Assembly (NCBI RefSeq): GCF_000377665.1
Contig: NZ_KB898646.1
Coordinates: 558,001-622,000, forward strand
Direction of reading: 5' to 3'
Source of the DNA: Vreelandella zhanjiangensis DSM 21076
GTDB lineage: Bacteria > Pseudomonadota > Gammaproteobacteria > Pseudomonadales > Halomonadaceae
DNA length: 64,000 bases
Position numbers and translations under genes: made by a program. The notes under the pieces are model-generated. The model searched no databases and was not told where the DNA came from. It saw nothing but the letters and a program-made list of their open reading frames with translations. Positions 20,007 through 41,414 of the stretch are shown in pieces (position 1 is the first letter of the stretch; every line of letters starts with the position of its first letter).

Positions 20007-20102
20007 TGGCGGAAGAGCGTGGGAGTCGAACCCACCAAAGACTGCTGGCAGCCTCTGCCAGATTTGAAGTCTGGCCGCCCCACCGGGGGTCGATCCTCTT
20101 CC
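20007..20102 (-). tRNA. selC: tRNA-Sec (anticodon TCA), CCA encoded
   Basis: Read on the minus strand, it starts GGAAGAGG and ends CTCTTCC-G-CCA. The anticodon arm is CCAGA-CTTCAAA-TCTGG (anticodon TCA), the T arm GTGGG-TTCGACT-CCCAC, and there is a long extra arm (AGGCTG-CCAG-CAGTCT). At 96 bases with CCA it matches the length and layout of E. coli selC, including an unusually long acceptor/T stack. It lies just downstream of selB on the same strand, completing the island. Confidence 0.95.
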
Positions 20103-26196: not shown

Positions 26197-29100
26197 TTAT
26201 AGCTTGTCGACCCGTACCAGGAACGACTTGAATTCCGGCGTCTGGGTATTGGCGTCACCCACGGATGGCGTCAACGTATTGGTCAGGTGAGCCCGCTTGG
26301 TTTCGCCTAAATAACCCCAGTGAATCGGAATACCGATCTGGTGCACCGTCCGTCCCGCTACCTGCAACGGACGGATGCGCTTGGTCACTACCGCCACCGC
26401 TTCGATATGGCCGCGCTTAGAGCTGACGCGAACCCGATCGCCTTTGACAATACCCAGTTCGTTGGCCAGGGTTTCGCCAATCTCCACGAATTTTTCCGGC
26501 TGGGCGATAGCGTTCAAGCGGTTGTGCATCGTCCAGTAGTGGAAATGTTCGGTGAGGCGGTAGGTGGTCGCCGCATGCGGAAACTCCTCGAAGCTGCCGA
26601 AATTGGCCCGATCCTGCTCGAATACCCGCGCCCCTGGATTGTTCTTGGCCAGTGGGTTATTGGGGTGCATCGGGTTGTTGGCGATGGGCGTTTCAAACGG
26701 TTCGTAGTGTTCCGGGAAAGGTCCTTCCACCATACGGTCACGGGCAAAGAACTGCCCTCTACCCGTCTGGTTCATGATGAAGGGTCCTTGAGCTTCTGTC
26801 GGCGCTGATTCCACCGGGAAGTCGGGAACGTCATTACCCACCCAGCGATTGCCGTTCCACCAGACGACCGCCTTGCGCTCGGCCCACGGTGTGCCGTCGG
26901 GACGCGCGCTTGCCCGGTTGTAAAGGATTCGCCTGTTGGCCGGCCACGACCAGGCCCAACCCAGCGTCTGGCCGACGCCGTAGGGGTCGGAGTTGTCGCG
27001 GCGGATCATCTGATTGCCTTCATTGGTCCAGCAACCGGCAAAAATCCAGCAGCCGCTCGCCGTGCTGCCATCAGCACGCAGCATGCCGAAGTCTTCGACC
27101 TGCTCGCCCGCGCGACAGACAATATTGCGCTGTTCATCAACGACGTCTTCGAGTGCCCAGCCGTTGTATTCCCGGGCCAGCTCGTTGGCGCTTGGCTCTG
27201 CCGGGTAGCGATAGGGCCAGCTCAGATTGAGCAGCGCATCCGAAAAGGCGCCACCTTCGTCGCGATACATCTGCTGCATCCGCAAGAAGATGCCCGCCAG
27301 AATGGCGGTATCGGGAATCGCTTCGCCCGGGGGCGGTGCCGCTGCCCAGAACCATTGCAGCCAGCGTGAGCTGTTGACGATGGAACCGTCTTCCTCGGCA
27401 AACGCGGTGGTCGGCAAGCGGAACACCTCGGTACCGATCTCAGCGGTGTTCACATCGTTGAATTCGCCATGGTTCTTCCAGAACTCGGCGGTTTCGGTTC
27501 TCAGTGGGTCAATGACCACCAAGTACTTCAAGCGAGAAAGCGCCGCAGTGGTCTTGGCTTTATGCGGAAAGGCGGCCAGCGGGTTGAACCCTTGGCAAAT
27601 GTAGCCGTTGATGTCGCCATGGCTCATTCGCTCGAAGGTATGCAGCACGTCATACAGGGTTTCGCTTAGCTTGGGCAGCCAGTCATAGCACCAGTTGTTC
27701 GCTTCGGTGGCGGCATCGCCGAACCATGCCTTCATTAGGCTGACATGAAAACGCTCGTAATAGCGCCAGTAGGATACTTCGCCAGGCAGCAGGTCCGGGC
27801 GTGAGCGATCAAGGATATAAGCTTCGTAATCCTGCTCATCGGCCTCGGGTAGTGACATGTATCCCGGTAGCAAATCCGAGAGCAGTCCAAGATCGGTCAG
27901 CCCCTGGATATTGGAGTGGCCGCGCAAGGCATTGACGCCGCCCCCGCGCATGCCCATGTTGCCAAGCAACAACTGGAGCATCGCCGCGGTGCGAATGATC
28001 TGCGAGCCGATCGAGTGCTGCGTCCACCCCAATGCGTAGAGGATCGTCATGGTCTTGTCGTTCACGACGGTCGCGGCGACCATGTCCCAGACGTGCTGAA
28101 GCTTGTCGCGGGGCGTACCGCACACCGAAGAGACCACATCAGGGGTATAGCGGCTGAAGTGCACACGCATCAATTGGAACACGCAGCGGGGGTGCGTGAG
28201 CGTATCGTCGCGTAGGGCATAGCCTTCGTCGTCGTACTCGTACCGCCAGGTCTCCTTGTCGTATTCGCCATTCTCGGCGTCATAGCCGGTGAACAGGCCA
28301 TCCTCGAAGCCGAAATCCTCGCGCACGATGAGGCTCGCGTCGGTATAGGCGCGCACATACTCATGATGGATCTGATCGGTTTCGATCAAGTAGCTGATCA
28401 GACCGCCCAGAAAAGCGATATCGGTGCCGGTACGAATTTCCGCGTAGTAGTCTGCCACCGCTGCCGTGCGGTTGAAGCGGGGATCGACCACTATCAAGCG
28501 GGCATCGTTATGCTCCTTGGCTTCCATCACCCAGCGAAAACCAACAGGGTGCGCCTCGGCGGCATTGCCACCCATGACGAGAATAAGATCAGCGTTGCGG
28601 ATGTCGACCCAGTGGTTGGTCATGGCACCGCGACCGAATGTTGGGGCAAGACCTGCCACCGTCGGTCCGTGTCAGACGCGTGCCTGGTTGTCGAGTACCA
28701 CCATGCCAAGGCTGCGGACTATCTTTTGTGTCAGGTAAGCCGTTTCGTTGGTCGAGGCGGACGCCGCCAGCATCCCGGTCGTGGTCCAGTGGTTGACCGT
28801 ATTGCCTTCCGCGTCCTGATCGACAAAGTTGGCGTCGCGGTCATCTTTCATGTGCCTGGCGATACGTGTCAGCGCGTCGTCCCAACTGATGCGCTTCCAC
28901 TCATCGGTGCCGGGTTCGCGTACCTGAGGATACTTGAGGCGCGATTCACTCTGGATGTAGTCGAGCAGCCCCGCACCCTTGGGGCACAGCGAGCCGCGAC
29001 TGACCGGATGATCCGGGTCGCCCTCTACATGGTAAATGCTATCAATACTGTTGATTGCCCCATCGCCGCGGCTATAGAGCAGCACGCCGCAACCCACCGA

Positions 29101-29265
29101 GCAGTAAGTGCAGTTGCTGCGGGTTATCTTGGCGCCGGTAAGCTTGAACTGGCGGATCGATGCGAGTGCGGGTTCAGGCGCAAAGCCCATCATGGCCATG
29201 CTGGAGGTGGCCATGCCGACTGCCCCGAGTTTAAAAAACTGTCTTCGCGTAACCTTCAGAGTCAT
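26197..29265 (-). CDS. fdnG: formate dehydrogenase alpha subunit, molybdopterin selenoprotein (UGA read as selenocysteine)
   Basis: About 1022 residues including selenocysteine, close to E. coli FdnG (1015). The start at 29265 has AGGAGG 6 bases upstream and yields a twin-arginine signal (KVTRRQFFKLG). The [4Fe-4S] motif CTYCSVGCGVLL follows at residues 55-70. An in-frame TGA at 28672-28674 (codon 198; E. coli Sec196) sits in NQARV-Sec-HGPTVAGLAPTFGRG, exactly the catalytic site. Downstream are the molybdopterin domains (VDPRFNRTA, GWTQHSIGSQI) and a C-terminal dinucleotide-binding domain. Simple gene calling splits it into two pieces at 28672. It oxidises periplasmic formate with FdnHI. fdoG is an equal symbol choice. 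Confidence 0.96.
28625..28674 (-). promoter_or_regulatory. bacterial SECIS element with the Sec UGA of fdnG
   Basis: Directly after the TGA (28672-28674, minus strand) the mRNA can form a stem-loop with the apex GGCAGGTCTTGCC, carrying the GGUCU loop bound by SelB. The equivalent in E. coli fdnG has GCAAGTCTTGC at the same distance. This explains the in-frame UGA. Confidence 0.85.
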
Positions 29266-29412
29266 TTCGGCCTCCTGTCGATTTGTTCTTAATGTCGTAA
29301 ATCCCTGAAATGACATATCCGTTAAGCATAGTGAGTCTTTTCTTGTTTGGCGAAGTGTCGCGGTGTCATTTAGTCAATGACAAGGTTGCCATCAGTGCTT
29401 GCTGATAATGGC

Positions 29413-32025: not shown

Positions 32026-32049
32026 AGGCGGCTACCTGAGTAGCCGCCT
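32026..32049 (-). terminator. rho-independent terminator after the porin gene
   Basis: On the minus strand AGGCGGCTAC-TCAG-GTAGCCGCCT is followed at once by TTTTGG. The perfect 10-bp stem is 48 bases past the porin stop and likely ends the whole 41-32 kb transcription unit. Confidence 0.75.
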
Positions 32050-32097: not shown

Positions 32098-33138
32098 TTA
32101 AAACTTCACTTCGACACCAATACCGTACAGGTCATCACGGGGGCGATCATCAAGACGTACGCGATCGACATTGTATTCGGCGTAGAGTTTGGCGCGCGGC
32201 ATCACCTGATAGGAAACTCCGAAGACGTATTCATCTACGCGATTGCCTTCGTCCGCTAGGTTATCCTGGCCTTTTTCGTTGTTATAGCCTGCCATTAATA
32301 GAAAATCGCCTAGTTGATAAGCGCCGGCCAGTTCGTAGAAGTGGGTTGAGAATTCCTCGTTATCAGCGGCCTGCATGGATTTATAGCCGTTGATGGCACC
32401 CACGTAAAGAGAGTTGTAACGGTAGCCTGCGCCAAACCCCCAGCTGGTCATGTCACCAAGCATGGCCGTCGCGCCTTGAAAGCTTTGGCGTTCGTAAGCG
32501 GTCACCAAATCCAGGCCGATATCGGTACTGTAACGAGCGGAAAGGCTGTATTGGTAGTTGCGGTCGCCATCGGTGGTTTCACGTGTGCGCCGGTCATCCT
32601 CAAATACATAGCTCGCGCGAAGGTCCCAGTTGCCGACATCATAGCCAATGGTCAACTGGTCATCTTTTTTGCTGGCAAAGGGCTTGATGCCATTAATTTT
32701 ATTGTCGTTGGCAGAAGAGCCAAACAGCTCAAAAATATCGGTAACGTCAATCAACTGACTGGTTGAGCTTTTGGTTCGGCCGATTGCCATTTCCAACTGG
32801 TCGAGGTAGCGAAAACCCAGCCAGGCATAGCGCACGTCAATGCTATCGGTCTTAGCATCATTTTCCTCTTCGGCGTTCATCTGCCACTCTAACTTACCCA
32901 GCAGATCTATTTCATCTGAGAAGCGATAGCGAAACTGGGTGCCCAGGCGGGCTTTACCATCACCGCCAAAGTTTAAGCGCTTGGTCTTATCCTGCTTGTC
33001 GTATTTAAATGCGCCCGCCTCATACTGCACTTTACCGGTAAGGTCGACTCTAAGATCGTCTGCTTTATAGACAGTCGCCGCTTGAGCCGTTTGCATGGCA
33101 ACGATAGAAACGGCGGTAAATACTAATAAATTCTTCAT
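32098..33138 (-). CDS. outer-membrane porin (OmpC/OmpF-type beta barrel)
   Basis: 346 residues. A signal peptide (MKNLLVFTAVSIVAMQTAQA) is followed by a run of alternating aromatic/hydrophobic strands (VDLTGKVQYEAGAF, RLGTQFRYRFSDEIDLLGKLEWQ) and a terminal phenylalanine (GIGVEVKF), the signature of trimeric porins. It is the last gene of the candidate phosphorylated-polyol locus, 116 bases after the phytase-like gene, and ends at a terminator. A role in letting the substrate across the outer membrane is inferred from position. Confidence 0.88.
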   Translation of the reverse strand: MKNLLVFTAVSIVAMQTAQAATVYKADDLRVDLTGKVQYEAGAFKYDKQDKTKRLNFGGDGKARLGTQFRYRFSDEIDLLGKLEWQMNAEEENDAKTDSIDVRYAWLGFRYLDQLEMAIGRTKSSTSQLIDVTDIFELFGSSANDNKINGIKPFASKKDDQLTIGYDVGNWDLRASYVFEDDRRTRETTDGDRNYQYSLSARYSTDIGLDLVTAYERQSFQGATAMLGDMTSWGFGAGYRYNSLYVGAINGYKSMQAADNEEFSTHFYELAGAYQLGDFLLMAGYNNEKGQDNLADEGNRVDEYVFGVSYQVMPRAKLYAEYNVDRVRLDDRPRDDLYGIGVEVKF

Positions 33139-33180
33139 TTTCCGATCCCTGTATCAAGATTAAGGCAGCAAGAACCCGTT

Positions 33181-33202
33181 CCTTTAATTCGATAATTAAA
33201 GG
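33181..33202. repeat. 8-bp inverted repeat between phytase-like and porin genes
   Basis: CCTTTAAT-TCGATA-ATTAAAGG, 43 bases upstream of the porin ATG. No T tract follows on the minus strand, so it is not a good terminator; an operator or mRNA processing hairpin is possible. Confidence 0.4.
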
Positions 33203-33254
33203 AGCTGAAACGTCAGTAGCGTTTTTTAGTTAATTAAGATTTTATGCTTGATGA

Positions 33255-34676
33255 TTAAAAGTGGTTTTTTAACAGTTCAACGTTATCTTCAAGTGTGCTG
33301 TTTAAAGCAACGCCGCTGTTTTCAAGTTTTTCGGTGTAATAATCTTTAATGCTTTCCCAGGAGTAATAAGGGAATGTGTCTGTAGTGATTGGAAAAGCTA
33401 TTTCCTGCTCATTGCGCAGCATTTTTATCAGGTGATCGCCATTATTTTCGTAAATAATCCATTGGATATTGGCACCCATAGGCGTTATCTCAGATCCTTT
33501 CCATATTTCGGCGACTAGGTCAGGGTTATCTTGGCTTTCATTAGCGCCTGCTATATCCAGATAAGAAGAAAGCGGAATAATCGTTTCTGCATGGGCGAAA
33601 TTGAAGATGCCGCTAAGGTTATTGTCCTGTAATGCATTGTCAGTTGAGATCAGCAGTTCCTTGACGAGCGGCGCGGCGATGTCCTGCGGAAGGTCGGTGC
33701 TGGTTAGCGATGGGCCCTTGGCATAATAGGTTTCCAGTATGTCGAGTTTCTCGTACCAGGCCAGCTGATCCTGGGTGAAGTATTGACCAAAATCGAAGGT
33801 GCCCTCCTGGGTTATGTTGGAGGCAATAATGTAAAGCTGATAAAGGTTATTGGCGGCATCTTCAGGGCTTCTCAGTTTGACTCTGCCTTTTTCATCTTCA
33901 AAAGCGAGTGTGCCGTCAGACAACGCTTCGTAGAGCTCCTCACCAATAAACTGACTTATGATAGCGTGGGCGAATTCAGCCGTTTTTGGCTGCTGATCCA
34001 GATATGCTTCCAGGACTTCTTGCCATTCACCGCCACTTTTATAGGCTTTGTACTGAGTGGCCAGATCGTAGGGCCGAAGATACGGATCACTGCCTTTTGC
34101 ATACTGCTCGGCGGTAATCGGGGGCGTCTGCTCGCCCAGCGCTACTTTAAGCCCTTCAAGGAAATGGTCGCGGCTTTGCGGCGCACGGTCTTTATAAGTG
34201 GCATGTGCCTCAATAGGGCGTCCGCTTTCAAATACGTCGGCAAACTGCTTACCCATGCGTTGGCCAATAGCATTAAGCTCTTCACCTCCTGATAAAGACA
34301 GCTCACCGTAAACATCTTTTTCCACTTCCATAAGGCGCGCTATTTGTTGCTGTAACGCTTGGCCAGCATTTGTTAGCTGCTGCTCCCGTTCAGCCAACGC
34401 CAGTAGCTCGTTAAGCGTCTTGTCATACTTTGCGCTGGAAAGATGGCGCGAGCCATGTCGTCCCACGTAATTGATAAATACCGGCTGATAGCCTTCAGGG
34501 GCGGGCGTATAGCGGGTGGCGACATAGGGATAGGGTGACTTTGTACTGAGGTGCGCATCAATAGCAGCGTCAGGATTAACTTCAGGAGTGTTCTCTGCCA
34601 ATGCGTTAGAGGAATACAGCCAGGCCGTAGCGGCCAGGGCGGTAAGGCATAGGGAGCGTGGAGCGAAGGCTTGCAT
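33255..34676 (-). CDS. histidine phosphatase, MINPP/phytase-like, exported
   Basis: 473 residues. Signal peptide at 1-27 (...LYSSNALA). The catalytic RHGSRH is at residues 73-78, where RHGxR carries the phosphohistidine. The proton-donor motif at 362-364 is HAE (in FNFAHAETIIPLS), not the HD of AppA-type acid phosphatases. HAE is the mark of the multiple inositol polyphosphate phosphatase (MINPP) branch, which removes phosphates from phytate and lower inositol phosphates. There are no cysteines in the core after the signal. A GCAC-N4-GTGC palindrome lies 60 bases upstream of the ATG. Periplasmic localisation and substrate are inferred from signal peptide and family. Confidence 0.85.
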   Translation of the reverse strand: MQAFAPRSLCLTALAATAWLYSSNALAENTPEVNPDAAIDAHLSTKSPYPYVATRYTPAPEGYQPVFINYVGRHGSRHLSSAKYDKTLNELLALAEREQQLTNAGQALQQQIARLMEVEKDVYGELSLSGGEELNAIGQRMGKQFADVFESGRPIEAHATYKDRAPQSRDHFLEGLKVALGEQTPPITAEQYAKGSDPYLRPYDLATQYKAYKSGGEWQEVLEAYLDQQPKTAEFAHAIISQFIGEELYEALSDGTLAFEDEKGRVKLRSPEDAANNLYQLYIIASNITQEGTFDFGQYFTQDQLAWYEKLDILETYYAKGPSLTSTDLPQDIAAPLVKELLISTDNALQDNNLSGIFNFAHAETIIPLSSYLDIAGANESQDNPDLVAEIWKGSEITPMGANIQWIIYENNGDHLIKMLRNEQEIAFPITTDTFPYYSWESIKDYYTEKLENSGVALNSTLEDNVELLKNHF

Positions 34677-34736
34677 GGTTTAGCGTTTCCTTTCTCGGTC
34701 ATAGGGACATGCCGTTAGCGCAACATGTCAGGTTTT

Positions 34737-34752
34737 GGGCACAGAGGTGCCC
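34737..34752. promoter_or_regulatory. palindrome upstream of the phytase-like gene, candidate LacI-family operator
   Basis: GGGCAC-AGAG-GTGCCC, 61-76 bases upstream of the phytase-like ATG. It shares the core GCAC-N4-GTGC with the palindrome at 41397-41414. On the minus strand it is followed by AAAA, so it is not a terminator of the upstream lacI-type gene. Confidence 0.45.
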
Positions 34753-34812
34753 CGTCGCCATGAAATAAGGCGAATTAAAATGATTACTTGGCTGTTTTAG
34801 CGGGAGTAGCCG

Positions 34813-35814
34813 CTAGCCGGGGCGAATGGTGCTACGCCATACGGGCCTGGCAGGTAGCTGGATGATCTGGCTGATATCATTTTCATCCGCCAGCTGCTTA
34901 GCGATGCAGACAGCAATTTCCTCAACCGGGTGATGAAAGGTAGTCAGGTCATAGCTTTGCCAGCTGGCCTGCTCGATATTATCGAAGCCCATCACGCAGA
35001 GGTCTTGAGGAATATTGAGCTTGAATGTTTGACGGGCCGTATCCAGAAAACCACACGCCAGCAGATCGGTGGTACAGAGCACAGCATCCGGCCGCTGCGA
35101 GCGGGCCAGTAACTGCCGGGCGGCTTCCTGCCCCGTGGCGTAGTGGGTAGGACCTGCCCGCACAATAGTGATGGGCAAGCCCGCCTCATTGACTGCCTGG
35201 CTAAAGGCTTGCTCACGCGCGACAAGGCTTGGGGTGCAGGCAGTGGATGTCACTAGCCCAAAAGAGCGGCACCCCGAGCGATAAAACAGATCAAAGGCTT
35301 CCTGCATCGCCGCTTCATGATCCAGCGTGATATGCACCGGACCGGTAAACTCCTGTCCACGGTTGACCAGCACCACGCGCAGCCCGCTTTGGATACAGGT
35401 TTGAACCAGAGATTCAGCTGGAGCGCCTGATAGAACCACGATAGCGCTTGCCCGGTATTTCAGCGCCTGATGTAAAGCGCTTTCTACAGCTTCTTCTTCG
35501 CCTGAGGTGTTAATCAGCATGACCGCACGGCCCAACGCCTGGATATGACGACTAACGGCCTCCAGCAGGCTGGATAAAAACGGCGATGACAGGTGATCAC
35601 CCACCAGGCACACCGGGCGTGAACTCTCCTGGGAAAGACCACGGGCCAGGTGGTTGACGTGATAATTAAGCTCTTTGGCTGCCGCAAGCACCTTTTGGCG
35701 CGTTTCTTCGGAAACGCTGGCGCCGTCGGTGAAAGTGCGCGACACGGCGGAACGTGACACACCGGCCAAACGGGCTACTTCTTCCGCACTAGCAAACTTG
35801 CGTGAGCTGCTCAT
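34813..35814 (-). CDS. LacI-family transcriptional regulator
   Basis: 333 residues. The N-terminal helix-turn-helix and hinge are typical (ASAEEVARLAGVSRSAVSRTF, then LNYHVNHLARGLSQ), followed by a periplasmic-binding-type effector domain. Its start overlaps the end of the phosphatase gene by 26 bases, so it belongs to the ABC transporter operon, while the phytase and porin lie just downstream. Autoregulation of the locus through the GCAC-N4-GTGC palindromes is a reasonable model. The effector is probably a sugar or polyol (phosphate). Confidence 0.9.
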   Translation of the reverse strand: MSSSRKFASAEEVARLAGVSRSAVSRTFTDGASVSEETRQKVLAAAKELNYHVNHLARGLSQESSRPVCLVGDHLSSPFLSSLLEAVSRHIQALGRAVMLINTSGEEEAVESALHQALKYRASAIVVLSGAPAESLVQTCIQSGLRVVLVNRGQEFTGPVHITLDHEAAMQEAFDLFYRSGCRSFGLVTSTACTPSLVAREQAFSQAVNEAGLPITIVRAGPTHYATGQEAARQLLARSQRPDAVLCTTDLLACGFLDTARQTFKLNIPQDLCVMGFDNIEQASWQSYDLTTFHHPVEEIAVCIAKQLADENDISQIIQLPARPVWRSTIRPG

Positions 35815-36409
35815 CGGGTGCCTCTTGCAACAGCTGTTTTATTTGTCTGGCCGCAATGCGGGCCGCTTCAAATAGCTCCGGTTTGGGCGTTTCAAACCAC
35901 TCATCCGGGGGCAGCTGCCGTTCCTTGCGAACATGAGCAACCGCGCTTTCAAGCGTAGGGTAACGGTTAGGCAATTCCAGGTGTAAAAACAGGGATACTA
36001 GTGTGACCGAACGGCTGCGTCCCCCACGACAGTGCACCAGCACATTACCTTTTTCACGAAGAGGGTAGGAAGGCTTGTCAGGCATAATCTGATCCAGCGC
36101 CGCCCTTAAAATGAAATAGGCGGCCAGCATCTGCTCGTGCGGGTTGCCCGGGCCGTCAATCATGCCGATCTTGTAATACCGAAACCTGCCTGGGCCCTGA
36201 ATTAAACCGTTGGGCGTAGGCGGAAGACTGGTATCCACCAGGTTAATATCCAGGTTGACGGCGCAGTTGATCACCGTGGTAATACCGTTTTCTTCCAACA
36301 ACGCCGGGCTGCTGGCGGCCTGACTATCGCCAATATAAAGCGCCACGTTACGCCCCGGCAGGCACGGTTCGATCAGGCTCATGGGAGGGCGCGGATAGTG
36401 TTTTGTCAT
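35789..36409 (-). CDS. cysteine-based dual-specificity-type protein phosphatase / possible inositol-phosphate phosphatase
   Basis: 206 residues, cytoplasmic. The P-loop HCRGGRSRS has the CX5R signature: Cys127 nucleophile, Arg133; Asp85 in GMIDGPGN is a likely general acid. Fold and size resemble dual-specificity phosphatases, a group that includes cysteine phytases and phosphoinositide phosphatases. It lies inside an operon with an inositol-monophosphatase-like enzyme (ATGA overlap of 4 bases), ABC transporter and phytase, which favours a small-molecule phosphatase over a protein phosphatase. That is inference. Confidence 0.8.
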   Translation of the reverse strand: MTKHYPRPPMSLIEPCLPGRNVALYIGDSQAASSPALLEENGITTVINCAVNLDINLVDTSLPPTPNGLIQGPGRFRYYKIGMIDGPGNPHEQMLAAYFILRAALDQIMPDKPSYPLREKGNVLVHCRGGRSRSVTLVSLFLHLELPNRYPTLESAVAHVRKERQLPPDEWFETPKPELFEAARIAARQIKQLLQEAPDEQLTQVC

Positions 36410-37251
36410 GCGATTTCAAGCTCTTCAAGTTGGCTGTAATGAGTAAGTGCGTCAGCGATAAGTGGCGTTGCTGCGAGTACTGCGCCACCGTGCTTTAGCG
36501 TACCGGGCAGGGAAAGATAGGGGCGGGTTACACCACCGGCTTCGCTGACTAATAAAAGGCCGGCCAAACTGTCCCACGGGTTCATGTGATGTTCGAGATA
36601 GCCGTCGATCCGGCCTTCAGCCACCCAGGCCAAGGCCAGCGCGCCAGAAGCTCCGCGGCGAATATTGGCGCCATGGGATAACAGGGCTGCCTGGGCGTTC
36701 AGGTACGTTTGCAGCGCCGTTCGGGTGGACCAGCCCATTTCAATTGTGGCGGTCGTGAAACTATCGGTGGCGGCTACCTGAATCGGCTGGGCGTTTTTAT
36801 AGGCGCCCTTGCCGCGTTGGGTGAAATAGAGCTCCTCGGTACACGGATTGAAAATGGCACCCAGCTGGGTCTTGCCGCGGTCAACAAAGGCGATGCAGAT
36901 GCAGAAGTGAGGAATGCCTCTTGCATAGTTGGCGGTGCCATCAATCGGGTCAACGACCCAGATGCCATTACCATTCACCTGCCCGCCGCTCTCCTCACCG
37001 CTACTTTCCTCGCCCACAAAAGCATCGCTGGGAAAGTGCTGCTGAATGGAGACTCTGATCTCCTGCTCAATGAAGGTATCGGCCTCGGTCAAGAAATCCT
37101 GATGGCCCTTGAGCGTGTAAAGCCCTGGCTTGCGTGTTTCGAAGAGATGGCGTGCTTTCAGGCCAGTGCGGTGAATCAGATCCTTGAGAAATTCAGCGCG
37201 GACTTCCAGCTCATGGGGCAGAATCGGCATATCTATCCTTTTATATTGCAA
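36406..37251 (-). CDS. inositol monophosphatase family protein
   Basis: 281 residues. The metal and substrate motifs are visible: FVGEESSGEE (first Glu), WVVDPIDGTANYARGIP (second Asp cluster) and NPWDSLAGLLLVSEAGG (third Asp). This is the IMPase/SuhB/HisN superfamily; substrates include myo-inositol-1-phosphate, histidinol phosphate and other polyol phosphates. The overlap with a cysteine phosphatase and 21-base spacing from the binding-protein gene argue for a catabolic, not suhB, role. Confidence 0.9.
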   Translation of the reverse strand: MQYKRIDMPILPHELEVRAEFLKDLIHRTGLKARHLFETRKPGLYTLKGHQDFLTEADTFIEQEIRVSIQQHFPSDAFVGEESSGEESGGQVNGNGIWVVDPIDGTANYARGIPHFCICIAFVDRGKTQLGAIFNPCTEELYFTQRGKGAYKNAQPIQVAATDSFTTATIEMGWSTRTALQTYLNAQAALLSHGANIRRGASGALALAWVAEGRIDGYLEHHMNPWDSLAGLLLVSEAGGVTRPYLSLPGTLKHGGAVLAATPLIADALTHYSQLEELEIA

Positions 37252-37272
37252 CGTGAACGTTGGGTTTTGTTG

Positions 37273-38376
37273 TTAACGGCGGTAGTTCAACATCCACAGG
37301 TCCTGCCAATCCTGGCGGTTTTCCCAGTCATCAATGGCCGTGCGGGGCGAGTAATCAAATAGCTGAGCCTTGAGGGCGCCAATGCCGGAAGGCTCTGTCT
37401 CGGGCAGTGATATATCCGAGCGGGTGGAAATCTTGCCATCCTGGGCCTGAGGCGCGATGCCTTCTTCGGTCAGCAGGTAATGCAAAAAAAGCTTGGCGGC
37501 GTTAGGGCTTTGGGTACCGCTGGCTATAAGGCCGATGGAGGGATAGGTCCAGCCAATCCATGGGTCCAGTCCTTCGCAAATACCCAGTTTCATGCCGTCA
37601 GCATTATCACGAAACTTGGCGGTACTGGTTAAGCCGAGAAAGCTGTCCTGCTGATCCGGGGAGGCAACGGCTTCGGCTGCATTGGAATCTGAATCGGTTA
37701 ATAGCGGCGCGTTGTTTGCCAGCGCTTTCACCCAGGCGGCGGTAGCGCTCTCTTCAGCATCGGGTAATGGGTGGCCGTAGCGCGCCTCAAAGGCCGCTGC
37801 CATCGCTTCATCCCCGTGCTGGGCCATCTGGTTAAACCAGTCCACGTAGGAAGGCTTGCCCAGCGGATCCTGCAACGCTACCCGGCGTTCCCACTCGGGT
37901 TCGGTCAACTCCCAGATATTATTGATCGGGCAGTGATCGTGGAGTGCGGTGTTGTAGGTCCAGACATTGGGAGCCATCACAATGGCTAATGGATCGCGGT
38001 AGCGCTCATCCACCCGGTCGGCTAGATCAGCAGGGAACCAGTTAACCGCAAAGCCTGTGTCCAGAAGCTGGGCAACGGCTGCCGGGGCGTCTGCCAGAAT
38101 GGCTACATCGGTTTGAATATTATTGGCTTGCGCCTCGCGGATGATCCTTTCCAGGGTATGGGGCGCTTTTGATTTAACCCCTTCGGCCTGAACGCCATAC
38201 TGTGCGGAAAAATTGGCTGCCTGTTCAACAATCTTGCCGGTTGAATCGTAGATCGTAATGCCTGGTTCCTGCCGGGCAGCTGCAATTAAAGCATCCAGCT
38301 CCGTGGATTCGTTAGCCCAGGCCAAGGGAGCTGAGGCCAGGCTAATGGCAACGGTAAGTCGTGATAAAAGACGCAT
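37273..38376 (-). CDS. ABC transporter periplasmic substrate-binding protein (AfuA/Fe3+-type family)
   Basis: 367 residues with a signal peptide (MRLLSRLTVAISLASAPLAWA). The body is a type-1 extracellular solute-binding protein of the iron/sugar-phosphate/2-aminoethylphosphonate group (QEPGITIYDSTGKIV at the start, VMAPNVWTYNT, LFLHYLLTEEGI). AfuA in this family binds hexose phosphates rather than iron, so an organophosphate ligand fits. Iron cannot be excluded from the sequence. Confidence 0.85.
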   Translation of the reverse strand: MRLLSRLTVAISLASAPLAWANESTELDALIAAARQEPGITIYDSTGKIVEQAANFSAQYGVQAEGVKSKAPHTLERIIREAQANNIQTDVAILADAPAAVAQLLDTGFAVNWFPADLADRVDERYRDPLAIVMAPNVWTYNTALHDHCPINNIWELTEPEWERRVALQDPLGKPSYVDWFNQMAQHGDEAMAAAFEARYGHPLPDAEESATAAWVKALANNAPLLTDSDSNAAEAVASPDQQDSFLGLTSTAKFRDNADGMKLGICEGLDPWIGWTYPSIGLIASGTQSPNAAKLFLHYLLTEEGIAPQAQDGKISTRSDISLPETEPSGIGALKAQLFDYSPRTAIDDWENRQDWQDLWMLNYRR

Positions 38377-38387
38377 AACAAACCCTT

Positions 38388-39500
38388 TTAAACGGCGTGC
38401 ATATAAGTGGTGGTAGAGACGTTGTTACGGATTATTCCCGCCTGGCCATAACGGGTGTTTTCCAGGCGATGGCCATCGGTATCAAATAGGTGCAAATGCT
38501 CAGGCTGTATCTGGCAAAAGGTGTGCTCGCCCGCCTGTACCTGAGGCCTGATCTGGGTAGAAAGCTGCAAGCACTGGCCTTCCGTTTCAAGATCCAGAAC
38601 CCAGCTGCCACCTGTCGGCATGATGCCTTGTACTTTGGCAGGTAAGGCGTAGGGTGTGGCCGCCTGAGCTAGGTGAATGTCTTCAGGTCGGATGCCGAGC
38701 ATGTGTGTATCAGGCTGGTTATTGAGACGACTCCCCAGCATGGAGTCAGCGGCAATCTGGTTGATCGGCGGGTTGCCAATAAACTCGGCGACAAAGCGGT
38801 TGGCGGGGCGTGCATAGATATCATCGGGGCTGCCTACCTGCTGCAAGTGCCCCTTGCTCATGACGGCGATCGTAGTGGCCAGTGTCATGGCCTCCCACTG
38901 GTCGTGGGTGACGAACAGGATGGTGGTATCAAATGCTTGGTGTAGCCGTTTCAGCTCAGCGCGCATTTCCAGGCGCAGTGAGGCGTCGAGATTGGACAGC
39001 GGCTCATCCAGCAGCAGTACTTTGGGCTTTAAGACCATCATGCGGGCGAGCGCCACGCGCTGCTGTTGGCCGCCTGATAGCTGAGAAGGGTAGCGCTTGG
39101 CATAGCCGGCAATGCCCAGTTTATCCATCACTTCGCCGGTCCGGGTGCGCCGTTCGCGCTCAGAAAGTTTGCGCAGACGCAATCCAAACTCGATATTCTG
39201 CTCAACCGTCATGTGGGGCCACAGCGCGTAGCTTTGAAACACTAACCCCAGCCCACGTTTCTCGGGAGACACAAAGCAGCCGTCTGCCGGGGAGTCCATT
39301 AGCTGATCGCCGATAAACAGACGCCCCTGGCTCAAGTGCTCAAGGCCCGCGATCATGCGCAGCATCGTAGTCTTTCCGCAGCCCGAAGGGCCAAGCAGGC
39401 ACATGAAATCACCGCTTTTGATATGCAGGTCGATATTTTGCACGGCGGTGGCCTGGCGGCTGTACTGCTTGGAAATCGCGTCTAACGTGATGGTCGGCAT
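38388..39500 (-). CDS. ABC transporter ATP-binding protein (AfuC/FbpC/PotA-like)
   Basis: 370 residues. Walker A GPSGCGKTT, Q-loop LVFQSYALWPHMTVEQN, signature LSGGQQQRVALARMM, Walker B VLLLDEPLSNLD and the switch His in LFVTHDQWEAM are all intact. A C-terminal TOBE-type regulatory domain (MLGIRPEDIHLA) follows. It sits 2 bases after the permease stop and 11 bases before the binding-protein gene. Confidence 0.93.
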   Translation of the reverse strand: MPTITLDAISKQYSRQATAVQNIDLHIKSGDFMCLLGPSGCGKTTMLRMIAGLEHLSQGRLFIGDQLMDSPADGCFVSPEKRGLGLVFQSYALWPHMTVEQNIEFGLRLRKLSERERRTRTGEVMDKLGIAGYAKRYPSQLSGGQQQRVALARMMVLKPKVLLLDEPLSNLDASLRLEMRAELKRLHQAFDTTILFVTHDQWEAMTLATTIAVMSKGHLQQVGSPDDIYARPANRFVAEFIGNPPINQIAADSMLGSRLNNQPDTHMLGIRPEDIHLAQAATPYALPAKVQGIMPTGGSWVLDLETEGQCLQLSTQIRPQVQAGEHTFCQIQPEHLHLFDTDGHRLENTRYGQAGIIRNNVSTTTYMHAV

Positions 39501-39502
39501 AA

Positions 39503-41308
39503 TTAGCTCTCCAGACCTTGGGCAAGGCCCGTTTTGGTTAATTTCTGAGTCAGAATCGTGCCGCCCCAGGCGAGCATGGCGATCATGAGTACAACGGCGT
39601 TGGCGGCTTGGGTGTAGTTGTAATCGACAAGGCGCAGAGAGTAGGTGGTAAGCACTTCGGTAGCTGGCACCGCCAGAATGATGAACAGGCTCACGCCTTT
39701 AATTCCCGAGATAAAAGGTAAGACGATACCCACCACCAGCGCGCCTTTTTGAATGGGCACAATGATGCTCCACATGCGCCGTAGCCAAGAAGCGCCTGAA
39801 ATCTGAGCGGCCTCTTCGGGCTCTTTACCCAGCTGCGTCATGGCTGAGATACCTGCCCGTGAAGCAAAGGGCATCTGGTCGGCAATTAGCGCGAGCATCA
39901 GAATCATCGACGTTCCATATAGCGCTGGAACAGGGCCGCGCTGCACGGCAAAAAGGGAAAGCGTGGCGGCTGCAAAGGCAATGCCAGGCACTAGATAAGG
40001 CATAAACGTGAGCTGGCGCAGCGAGCTTGCAAGCCAGCGCCAAGGCGTACGCGTCACCACATAGCCCACCAGCAGGCCGAGTAAACCGGCACATATAGAG
40101 GCGGTACCCACAATACGCAGGCTATTCCAGGTGGCGGACCAGAACTCAGGGGTTAATAAAATGCCGTTTTTCAAGGCGATCGTATTGAGGTTGGTGCCGA
40201 TCCAGTAATCCAGGGTGAAGTTATTCAGATGAAAACGCCCTGGAATACGCATGATGGTGGATAGAAAAAGCGTTAATAGCGGAAGCACGACGCCAATGAT
40301 AAACAGAGAAGCGGCTAGCAACGTGGCGGGAAGGCGCCAAACGCCGAGCGGGCGACGACGTTCCATAGCGCCTTTGCCACCCAGGGTGACAAAGCGGCGC
40401 GCTTCACGCATTAGGTAAAGATCAATTGTTAACGTGATACAGCCCAGCACCATGATGGCCCCCGCCAGTACAGAGGCGACACCCGTCTGGCGCGACGAAA
40501 TAGCTCTGAACAGCGAGGTGGAGAGGGTGTCGTACTGCACCGGCAGGCCGAGAATGTAGGGCACGGCAAACTCGCCCAGCCCATCGGCTAGAATCAGCAC
40601 CATCGCGGACATCAGCGCAGGTCGCATTAGCGGTAAAATGATACGAAAGGCAACGGTTGAACGGCTGGCGCCCAGAATGCGAGCCGAATCTTCAAGCTGG
40701 GAATCCAGGCGGCGTAAGGCGTTGCCAAACAGCAGTATGACCAGCGGAATATAGTGCAGCGCCAGTATGAAAATCATCGGCACGGGACCATAAGCCAGCC
40801 AATCGGGCGAGGAGTAGCCCATTGACTCCAGCCAGCCTGGTTGGCCACCCATCGACCGGTTCTTGAATAACGTGGTCCAGGCTAGCGCGAACGTCCACGT
40901 AGGGAGCATAAACGGCACAATCAATGCAGTAGCAAACCAGCCTCGGCCCCACAAATTAGTACGGCTTAAAAGCCATGCCATGATACCGCCCACCACCATG
41001 GCAATACACATAGCGCCGATGGCCACGCTAAGCGTGTTGAGTAACGGTTGCCAGAACAGCCGCTTTGAAATAGGTGAGGTAAACACGCGTTCAAGGTAGT
41101 AAAACGTGAAGCTGCCCTGTTCTGCGCCAATGCGCGTTGAGTCGCCAAAGTTAACGTTAACCGCATCCATTAAAATGGAAATAACTGGCGCCAGGATCAG
41201 GTAGCTGAATGTGGTTAATAAGCCTATGCCAAGTAGCGTCGCTGGATTTTTTAGACTGAGCTGTAGTCCCCTTTTACTGGGGAGTGCTGAAGTGATCCAC
41301 CCAACCAT
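39503..41308 (-). CDS. ABC transporter permease, two fused BPD_transp_1 domains (AfuB/FbpB-like)
   Basis: About 601 residues from the ATG at 41308, supported by GAGGG 8 bases upstream; an upstream alternative at 41413 has no site. Two copies of the permease domain are seen, each with an EAA loop (RLDSQLEDSARILGASRSTV in the first; KEPEEAAQISGASWLRRM in the second), giving about 12 membrane helices. The fused architecture is typical of the iron/sugar-phosphate importers. First gene of the operon. Confidence 0.9.
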   Translation of the reverse strand: MVGWITSALPSKRGLQLSLKNPATLLGIGLLTTFSYLILAPVISILMDAVNVNFGDSTRIGAEQGSFTFYYLERVFTSPISKRLFWQPLLNTLSVAIGAMCIAMVVGGIMAWLLSRTNLWGRGWFATALIVPFMLPTWTFALAWTTLFKNRSMGGQPGWLESMGYSSPDWLAYGPVPMIFILALHYIPLVILLFGNALRRLDSQLEDSARILGASRSTVAFRIILPLMRPALMSAMVLILADGLGEFAVPYILGLPVQYDTLSTSLFRAISSRQTGVASVLAGAIMVLGCITLTIDLYLMREARRFVTLGGKGAMERRRPLGVWRLPATLLAASLFIIGVVLPLLTLFLSTIMRIPGRFHLNNFTLDYWIGTNLNTIALKNGILLTPEFWSATWNSLRIVGTASICAGLLGLLVGYVVTRTPWRWLASSLRQLTFMPYLVPGIAFAAATLSLFAVQRGPVPALYGTSMILMLALIADQMPFASRAGISAMTQLGKEPEEAAQISGASWLRRMWSIIVPIQKGALVVGIVLPFISGIKGVSLFIILAVPATEVLTTYSLRLVDYNYTQAANAVVLMIAMLAWGGTILTQKLTKTGLAQGLES

Positions 41309-41396
41309 TGGTTTTCCCTCGTTGACACTCTGGATAGCCGAAAGATCGACCGGATTGAGAGGCATTCTAAAGAGGAAAGATGACAGAACGTTGACA

Positions 41397-41414
41397 TTTG
41401 CACATAAGTGCAAA
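41397..41414. promoter_or_regulatory. palindrome upstream of the ABC permease, candidate LacI-family operator
   Basis: TTTGCAC-ATAA-GTGCAAA, perfect 7-base arms, 89-106 bases upstream of the preferred permease start. The core GCAC-N4-GTGC matches the site at 34737-34752. A lone half-site TTTGCAC recurs at 41497-41503. Unlike many LacI operators there is no central CpG, which is a caution. Confidence 0.5.

Follow-up and report, generated by a model that had tools for sequence, protein, structure and literature searches.

A 64,000-nucleotide stretch of the Vreelandella zhanjiangensis DSM 21076 genome (contig NZ_KB898646.1, positions 558,001 to 622,000; the window) carries an eight-gene operon that, judged from sequence, probably encodes a LacI-controlled ATP-binding cassette (ABC) importer of partly dephosphorylated inositol phosphates together with two cytoplasmic phosphatases, an inositol monophosphatase (IMPase)-family enzyme and a Cys-based dual-specificity-type phosphatase (DSP). 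The host genome is 4.06 Mb and belongs to a Vreelandella/Halomonas relative. A first-pass annotation of the window had proposed inositol-phosphate acquisition for this locus, and the proposal is supported by co-conservation of the core genes, by a second copy of the operon's palindrome before a MINPP-porin gene pair in Marinomonas foliarum, by adjacent inositol-catabolic (iol) genes and by co-occurrence of the DSP with IolD. The last three of these argue that the substrate is an inositol phosphate.

Organization of the operon

Eight open reading frames (ORFs) lie on the minus strand in the order first annotated, from about 41308 down to 32098, with inter-gene gaps of at most 136 bases, and Pfam matched the proposed identity of each of the eight proteins. 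None of them reached an NCBIfam equivalog cut-off among the matches listed.

41398..41413, no strand assigned: palindrome TTGCAC-N4-GTGCAA, where the operon's LacI protein probably binds
39503..41308, minus strand: fused ABC permease, two BPD_transp_1 stretches in one protein, predicted start
38388..39500, minus strand: ABC ATPase (ABC_tran and TOBE_2)
37273..38376, minus strand: periplasmic binding protein of the FbpA/AfuA/MctA superfamily (Pfam SBP_bac_11)
36406..37251, minus strand: IMPase-family phosphatase (Inositol_P PF00459, E 1.1e-55)
35789..36409, minus strand: Cys-based dual-specificity-type phosphatase, CX5R (DSPc PF00782, E 6.4e-10)
34813..35814, minus strand: LacI-family regulator (PF00356 and PF13377, LacI and Peripla_BP_3)
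33255..34676, minus strand: MINPP-like histidine phosphatase (His_Phos_2 PF00328, E 4.3e-15)
32098..33138, minus strand: outer-membrane porin (PF13609 Porin_4, E 9.6e-25)
32026..32049, minus strand: weak terminator-like hairpin after the porin gene, of a kind only modestly more frequent than in shuffles

The permease start had been placed at 41413/41414, where the TTG is the minus-strand first three bases of the palindrome, and we discard it. By eye, the likely starts are ATG 41308, with GAGGG upstream, or ATG 41365. The operon had also been taken to end at a terminator: the hairpin is present, but it is not strong evidence, since terminator-like sites across the window number 16 against 10.3 +/- 3.4 in shuffles. 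Promoter-like sites, at 5 against 7.9 +/- 2.7, carry little weight as well.

The importer, IMPase, DSP and LacI genes recur together

A search of genome contigs with the DSP detected 55 loci in Vreelandella/Halomonas, Marinomonas, Vibrio, Enterobacterales, Rhizobiales, Rhodobacteraceae and others. A gene was scored as present at a locus when a tblastn match to a query, taken from one of a few loci, exceeded a bit threshold, and absence means that no close relative lies in the stretch examined. The permease, ATPase, binding protein, IMPase and LacI genes were all found beside the DSP gene in 44 of the 55 loci, in gamma- and alphaproteobacteria, indicating that the gene set is not a chance neighborhood. 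As the loci were retrieved through the DSP, this gene is not independent evidence; its partner genes are. Four of the 11 incomplete loci (L012, L026, L028, L030) are contigs shorter than 7 kb and two more (L051, L059) retain only the ATPase gene. The expected co-conservation thus held for the importer, IMPase, DSP and LacI genes and only in part for the MINPP and porin genes: a histidine acid phosphatase (HAP) gene is present in 13/55 loci, and the families differ. The rarity of the HAP gene shows that the tight link is among importer, IMPase, DSP and LacI, and does not include the phytase.

The cassette is a sparse, patchy trait. DSP matches at E<=1e-20 were found in 6 of the 398 genomes of a Pseudomonadota set, which includes the window genome by design, and binding-protein matches in 5 of 151 genomes of a family set, four within the genus and one weak (E 1.6e-4). 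The closest DSPs are 99% identical to that of the window in a Halomonas metagenome-assembled genome (L015) and 98% in Vreelandella populi (L009). Binding-protein relatives (E<=1e-60) occur in 82 of 72,556 plasmid records, among them pSymB of S. meliloti 1021, and a Klebsiella, a Shinella and a Devosia carry plasmid copies whose permease is labeled 'iron ABC transporter'. A megablast search with the Leclercia cassette, at 80% coverage or more, detected it in none of 5426 E. coli genomes; the five best matches cover 2%, in fbpC.

A palindrome shared by the cassette and other phosphatase genes

The regulator has the features of a LacI-family repressor, with Pfam matches to both the helix-turn-helix and the sugar-binding domain. 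We spotted a TGCAC-N4-GTGCA palindrome by eye in upstream sequence and then tested it across 41 upstream regions of the 55 loci. In 31 of these regions by a strict pattern, and in 37 by a relaxed one, the longer form, TTGCAC-N4-GTGCAA, precedes the leading gene of the cassette, and the palindrome is found somewhere within 41 of the 55 loci. It is the sole site in the window even when two mismatches are allowed, a laxity at which shuffles average 4.0 sites. The window genome has a single exact site, and a reversed control pattern also has one; in the window genome and 47 others together, 65 sites were detected versus 11 for the control. The palindrome is probably the site of the operon's LacI. 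As another operator candidate, CG-centered palindromes were considered and rejected, giving isolated matches in 5/41 upstream regions and none in common.

Of 34 His_Phos_2 rows, 14 begin no more than 10 kb from an exact palindrome. Marinomonas foliarum carries a MINPP-like and Porin_4 pair whose His_Phos_2 match is preceded, at a distance of 276 bases, by a second palindrome, on a different contig from the cassette's own site; the pair shows 70% and 50% identity to that of Vibrio HDW18. In Vibrio salinus, Pantoea coffeiphila and Erwinia JUb26, palindromes lie in clusters of a LacI paralogue, an IMPase, a major facilitator superfamily (MFS) protein and an AppA-like phosphatase (L105:2293-7115, L106:4484-10299, L107:2582-8396). 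The MFS protein, scanned in L105 and L106, is nearest to the PgtP/UhpC/GlpT models, below their cut-offs, and the L107 cluster is adjoined by a divergent ABC importer with a PhnS2-like binding protein, also below cut-off. These clusters look like a parallel, carrier-type system, in which an antiporter-type carrier possibly takes up an inositol monophosphate. In three alphaproteobacterial genomes (G165, G171 and G180; L108-L110), a palindrome with the same half-sites lies between an iol operon and a divergent LacI gene whose product shows 29% identity to the window LacI. ABC genes and a weak IolA-like match lie near a further palindrome (L119). Additional sites are found in G173 (two, C19), G178 (C9), G182 (C3:136748), G186 (two, C2:668 kb), G188 (two), G190 (C17) and G195.

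A likely association of the cassette with inositol catabolism

In M. alcarazii the cassette is followed, on the opposite strand, by iolG, iolB, a methylmalonate-semialdehyde dehydrogenase gene, iolE, iolD and iolC-aldolase; the iol genes and the dehydrogenase all score above their NCBIfam cut-offs. At least two iol genes were found in four of the 55 loci (L018, L019, L039 and L058). Across the 398-genome set, IolD (78 genomes in all) is present in 5 of 6 DSP-positive and in 73 of 392 DSP-negative genomes (Fisher p=0.0013, and p=0.00026 without the window genome), values that ignore phylogeny and come from six positives with few independent cases. Of the five genomes with both, G352 carries a window-type cassette and, separately, a lone DSP gene adjoining its iol operon. 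G513 carries at least the permease, ATPase, IMPase, DSP and LacI genes, the binding protein being uncalled in its listing. Among 47 cassette-bearing genomes (48 from the 55 loci, minus L063), 34 have IolD above cut-off; set against the 78/398 of the phylum set, this is only suggestive, as the two groups differ taxonomically.

In the window genome IolD (E<=1e-180) was not detected, and IolG gave only IolG-like matches below cut-off, so that by sequence no catabolic route for free inositol is visible there; in genomes without IolD, the gain may be phosphorus, or another use of inositol. This deficit would fit general organophosphate scavenging without inositol specificity, as would a DSP whose substrate is not fixed by sequence and the Na/Pi-PhoU transporter genes present in 14/55 loci. 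LacI-type control suggests a carbon ligand, and both the IolD co-occurrence and the iol adjacency point to inositol, leaving general scavenging extremely improbable.

Two phosphatases of unlike chemistry

The IMPase scores 189.4 bits with PF00459 against a cut-off of 27, without an NCBIfam equivalog over cut-off, and its closest relatives in the Protein Data Bank (PDB) are IMPase/SuhB structures. The DSP, predicted to be cytoplasmic, has the P-loop HCRGGRSR with an intact CX5R as read from its sequence; C127, R133 and D85 are invariant in an alignment of 52 rows (the window and 51 of 54 others), and the structural model (pLDDT 89.5) has a VHR-like fold. A Pfam search (E<=0.001) gave no match to the PTP-like phytase family, the only matches being DSPc and, below cut-off, PTP-SAK.

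The two enzymes form a single open frame in 14 of the 55 loci by a strict test (16 by ORF listing), and both Pfam domains were confirmed in the fused protein of L035. We propose that the fusion reflects consecutive action of the two phosphatases in the cytoplasm. Two phosphatases of unlike chemistry, together with the Na/Pi-PhoU transporters, suggest that each imported molecule brings in more than one phosphate, and the transporters are consistent with disposal of the released phosphate.

A different ligand would be an inositol phosphodiester, such as glycerophosphoinositol or inositol 1,2-cyclic phosphate, opened by accessory phosphodiesterases and finished by the IMPase and DSP. Such a ligand would preserve the inositol link. 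A calcineurin-like phosphoesterase gene is present in 12/55 loci, and variant loci (L116-L118), which combine a more distant DSP (42-44% identity in L116 and L117) with another ABC importer, have a gene for a metallo-beta-lactamase (MBL)-fold hydrolase before the DSP gene in L116 and L117, carried by G391 and G501. Both the calcineurin-like and MBL folds include phosphodiesterases. The window operon lacks such an enzyme, the MINPP and AppA-like partners are phosphomonoesterases, and the import of more than one phosphate per molecule, as suggested above, also speaks against this ligand. We consider a phosphodiester unlikely, and an inositol phosphate remains our preferred substrate.

The binding protein belongs to a superfamily of mixed ligands

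A direct sequence search with the binding protein gave no PDB match. A profile search was required, and the nearest solved relatives it detected include MctA, VcA0625 (8x1a, E 2.4e-9), which its title describes as a glucose-6-phosphate (G6P)-binding protein, and AfuA (4r72, E 1.7e-7), ranked behind the other two. The structural model (pLDDT 93.3) retrieved FutA, HitA and FbpA among its top fold matches. By itself, a superfamily that unites FutA/HitA/FbpA, the metal-citrate-binding MctA, VcA0625 and AfuA names no ligand, and the fold search fails to tell iron from phosphate ligands.

These fold matches and the 'iron ABC transporter' label of the plasmid permeases would suit an importer of ferric iron or Fe-phytate, and inositol phosphates can act as iron carriers. 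In FbpA-type ferric sites, an adjacent pair of tyrosines coordinates Fe(III). Among 65 aligned binding proteins (the window and 64 of 71 listed), no adjacent tyrosine pair is conserved at 90% or more; the tyrosine columns that reach this level are 43, 60, 141, 177, 196 and 278, in the alignment's own numbering, unmapped to FbpA. A C-terminal profile aimed at the FbpA tyrosine site was also tried and set aside, as it gave only weak matches that left the site uncovered. An alignment of 12 binding proteins shows a conserved A-K-[FY]-R in their C-terminal lobe; like the lack of a conserved tyrosine pair, it argues against iron, and the IMPase, DSP and LacI regulator are ill-suited to an iron regulon. 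We regard iron as the ligand as hardly credible.

An AfuABC-like importer of hexose or heptose phosphates, with broad-specificity phosphatases, would accord with VcA0625 and AfuA among the nearest solved relatives by profile. AfuABC, too, was initially mistaken for an iron system (PMC4546632, in the text available). Hexose phosphates would need no cytoplasmic dephosphorylation, the MINPP, AppA-like and IMPase partners would go unexplained, and neither the iol genes beside some cassettes nor the palindrome at the M. foliarum MINPP-porin pair would be expected, making a hexose or heptose phosphate very unlikely. The alphaproteobacterial cassettes L023, L029, L032, L040, L047, L058 and L125 carry three tandem binding proteins, and several of them a second IMPase as well, which suggests that one importer serves several ligands.

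A MINPP-like phosphatase and porin form a variable outer layer

The product of the seventh gene had been called MINPP-like, and its sequence supports this. RHGxR and HAE are the MINPP motifs; in addition to the His_Phos_2 match, both are invariant in an alignment of eight HAP proteins, and the best PDB relative is the MINPP 4fdt (E 2.2e-49), which we take to be that of B. thetaiotaomicron (BtMINPP). By eye, the N-terminus resembles a signal peptide.

Genes of the HAP/His_Phos_2 type lie at loci of Vreelandella/Halomonas, Vibrio HDW18, enterics and Celerinatantimonas. Porin matches, from two Pfam families, were likewise found in 13 of the 55 loci; the match in L027 is weak and stands without a HAP gene. 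The outer layer consists of MINPP and Porin_4 in Vreelandella/Halomonas, of a distant MINPP (28-29%) with Porin_4 on the opposite strand in Vibrio HDW18, and of an AppA/Agp-like phosphatase with a KdgM porin, upstream of the cassette, in Enterobacter mori. Members of the same phosphatase and porin clusters as in E. mori are carried by L035, L049, L050 and L053. On a conjugative Klebsiella pneumoniae plasmid (L123, NZ_CP031851.1) the cassette lies between IS1 and IS91 elements and comprises a KdgM porin, a histidine-type phosphatase, an 'iron ABC transporter permease', an ATPase, a binding protein, an IMPase-family gene of 1440 bases, which is the fusion length, and a 'substrate-binding domain' gene in the LacI position.

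Observations that weigh against inositol-phosphate import

Several observations weigh against this reading. At the level of inositol catabolism, 51/55 loci have fewer than two iol genes, and at least two are present in only 3 of the 44 core loci; besides the window genome, no IolD above cut-off was found in four of the six Vreelandella/Halomonas relatives searched. Of the five IolD-positive genomes behind the co-occurrence, three (G388, G391 and G501) belong to one family and carry the variant with another ABC importer, and this slightly lowers our confidence in inositol-phosphate import and slightly raises the phosphodiester alternative. The palindrome is absent from the G352 cassette and, even relaxed, from 4/41 upstream regions. 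Exact palindromes at L111:3891 and L112:4411, at the same place in two Marinomonas genomes, are unexplained, and around these and L119 a tblastn search detected no HAP, IMPase, DSP or iolB-G gene. The nearest solved binding proteins take metal-citrate, G6P, hexose phosphates or iron, and two same-genus genomes carry a binding-protein paralogue (54-55%) alone at a second place (L120:7068-8177 and L121:7403-8554), where the rest of the cassette does not adjoin. Finally, 42/55 loci have no HAP or phytase-type gene in the stretch examined, and PF00328 is unmatched genome-wide in 22 of the 47 cassette-bearing genomes; this model misses at least one MINPP, that of G151/L009, which tblastn detects.

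A proposed uptake pathway

In the pathway we propose, the porin would admit inositol phosphates, and the MINPP-like enzyme would take most phosphates off highly phosphorylated forms in the periplasm. The binding protein and ABC importer would then capture and import the partly dephosphorylated inositol phosphate, from which the cytoplasmic DSP and IMPase-family enzyme would strip the remaining phosphates, yielding phosphate and inositol. LacI would act on TTGCAC-N4-GTGCAA upstream of the permease gene and be released by inositol or an inositol phosphate. We infer the substrate, the cellular locations, the order of steps, the palindrome as LacI site and the effector.

To a wider proposal we give about an even chance: that this is a proteobacterial system spread by horizontal transfer in which inositol polyphosphates cross the inner membrane and are dephosphorylated in the cytoplasm by an uncharacterized family of Cys-based phosphatases, often fused to the IMPase. 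If so, phytate use would not be confined to the cell exterior and the periplasm, and one class of 'iron ABC transporters' would import inositol phosphates.

Other features of the window

The window also contains, at 28672-29316, a formate-dehydrogenase-like ORF (by eye) that ends after LDNQARV, presumably where such enzymes carry selenocysteine, and a tRNA-Sec gene at 20007-20102.

Comparison with known systems

Bacterial phytases are well known, and the literature searched described no characterized entry route into Gram-negative cells for partly dephosphorylated phytate products. Among the titles and abstract openings of open-licence PMC papers, no description of the present gene set was recognized. 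With this set, an importer, a pair of phosphatases and a regulator with its candidate operator become open to testing, and inositol-phosphate import would correct the label on the Klebsiella, Shinella and Devosia plasmid copies.

The operon resembles InoEFGK, which we take to be the same module as KEGG M00599, in that comparative genomics has assigned an ABC importer to inositol or inositol phosphate. It is set apart, by the descriptions, by its FbpA/AfuA-like binding protein, its LacI control and its two phosphatases. M00599 consists of a binding protein, two permeases and an ATPase, unlike the single fused permease here, and as an 'inositol phosphate' module it was predicted in Ensifer aridi, functionally uncharacterized there, in a paper whose available text also describes inositol phosphates as a large share of soil organic phosphorus (PMC5237526). 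The available portion of PMC3750489 lists the T. maritima InoEFGK as an inositol system controlled by IolR, a regulator of the ROK family. The available text of a Caulobacter iol study speculates that an HlyB-family transporter carries derivatized inositol, and its main text does not use the word phosphatase (PMC2597717).

AfuABC shares the binding-protein superfamily, the ABC class and a phosphorylated ring ligand, which AfuA contacts through Ser37, Thr150, His205, Asp206 and Glu229; it is distant by profile, and the part of its description available mentions no phosphatases, LacI or porin (PMC4546632). BtMINPP shares His_Phos_2, RHGxR and HAE with the MINPP-like protein, which here lies inside an importer operon with two more phosphatases. 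In some enteric loci (L054), and likewise in L105 and L106 among the parallel clusters, the place of the MINPP is taken by AppA phytase/Agp relatives, which score 198-244 bits against the AppA cut-off of 585. VHR-like DSPs and IMPase/SuhB share fold or family and catalytic motifs with the two presumably cytoplasmic enzymes; the window DSP family differs from VHR-like DSPs in being tied to an importer and often fused to the IMPase. The class of function is thus already known, and the transporter family, the DSP, its fusion and the regulon appear new within the literature searched.

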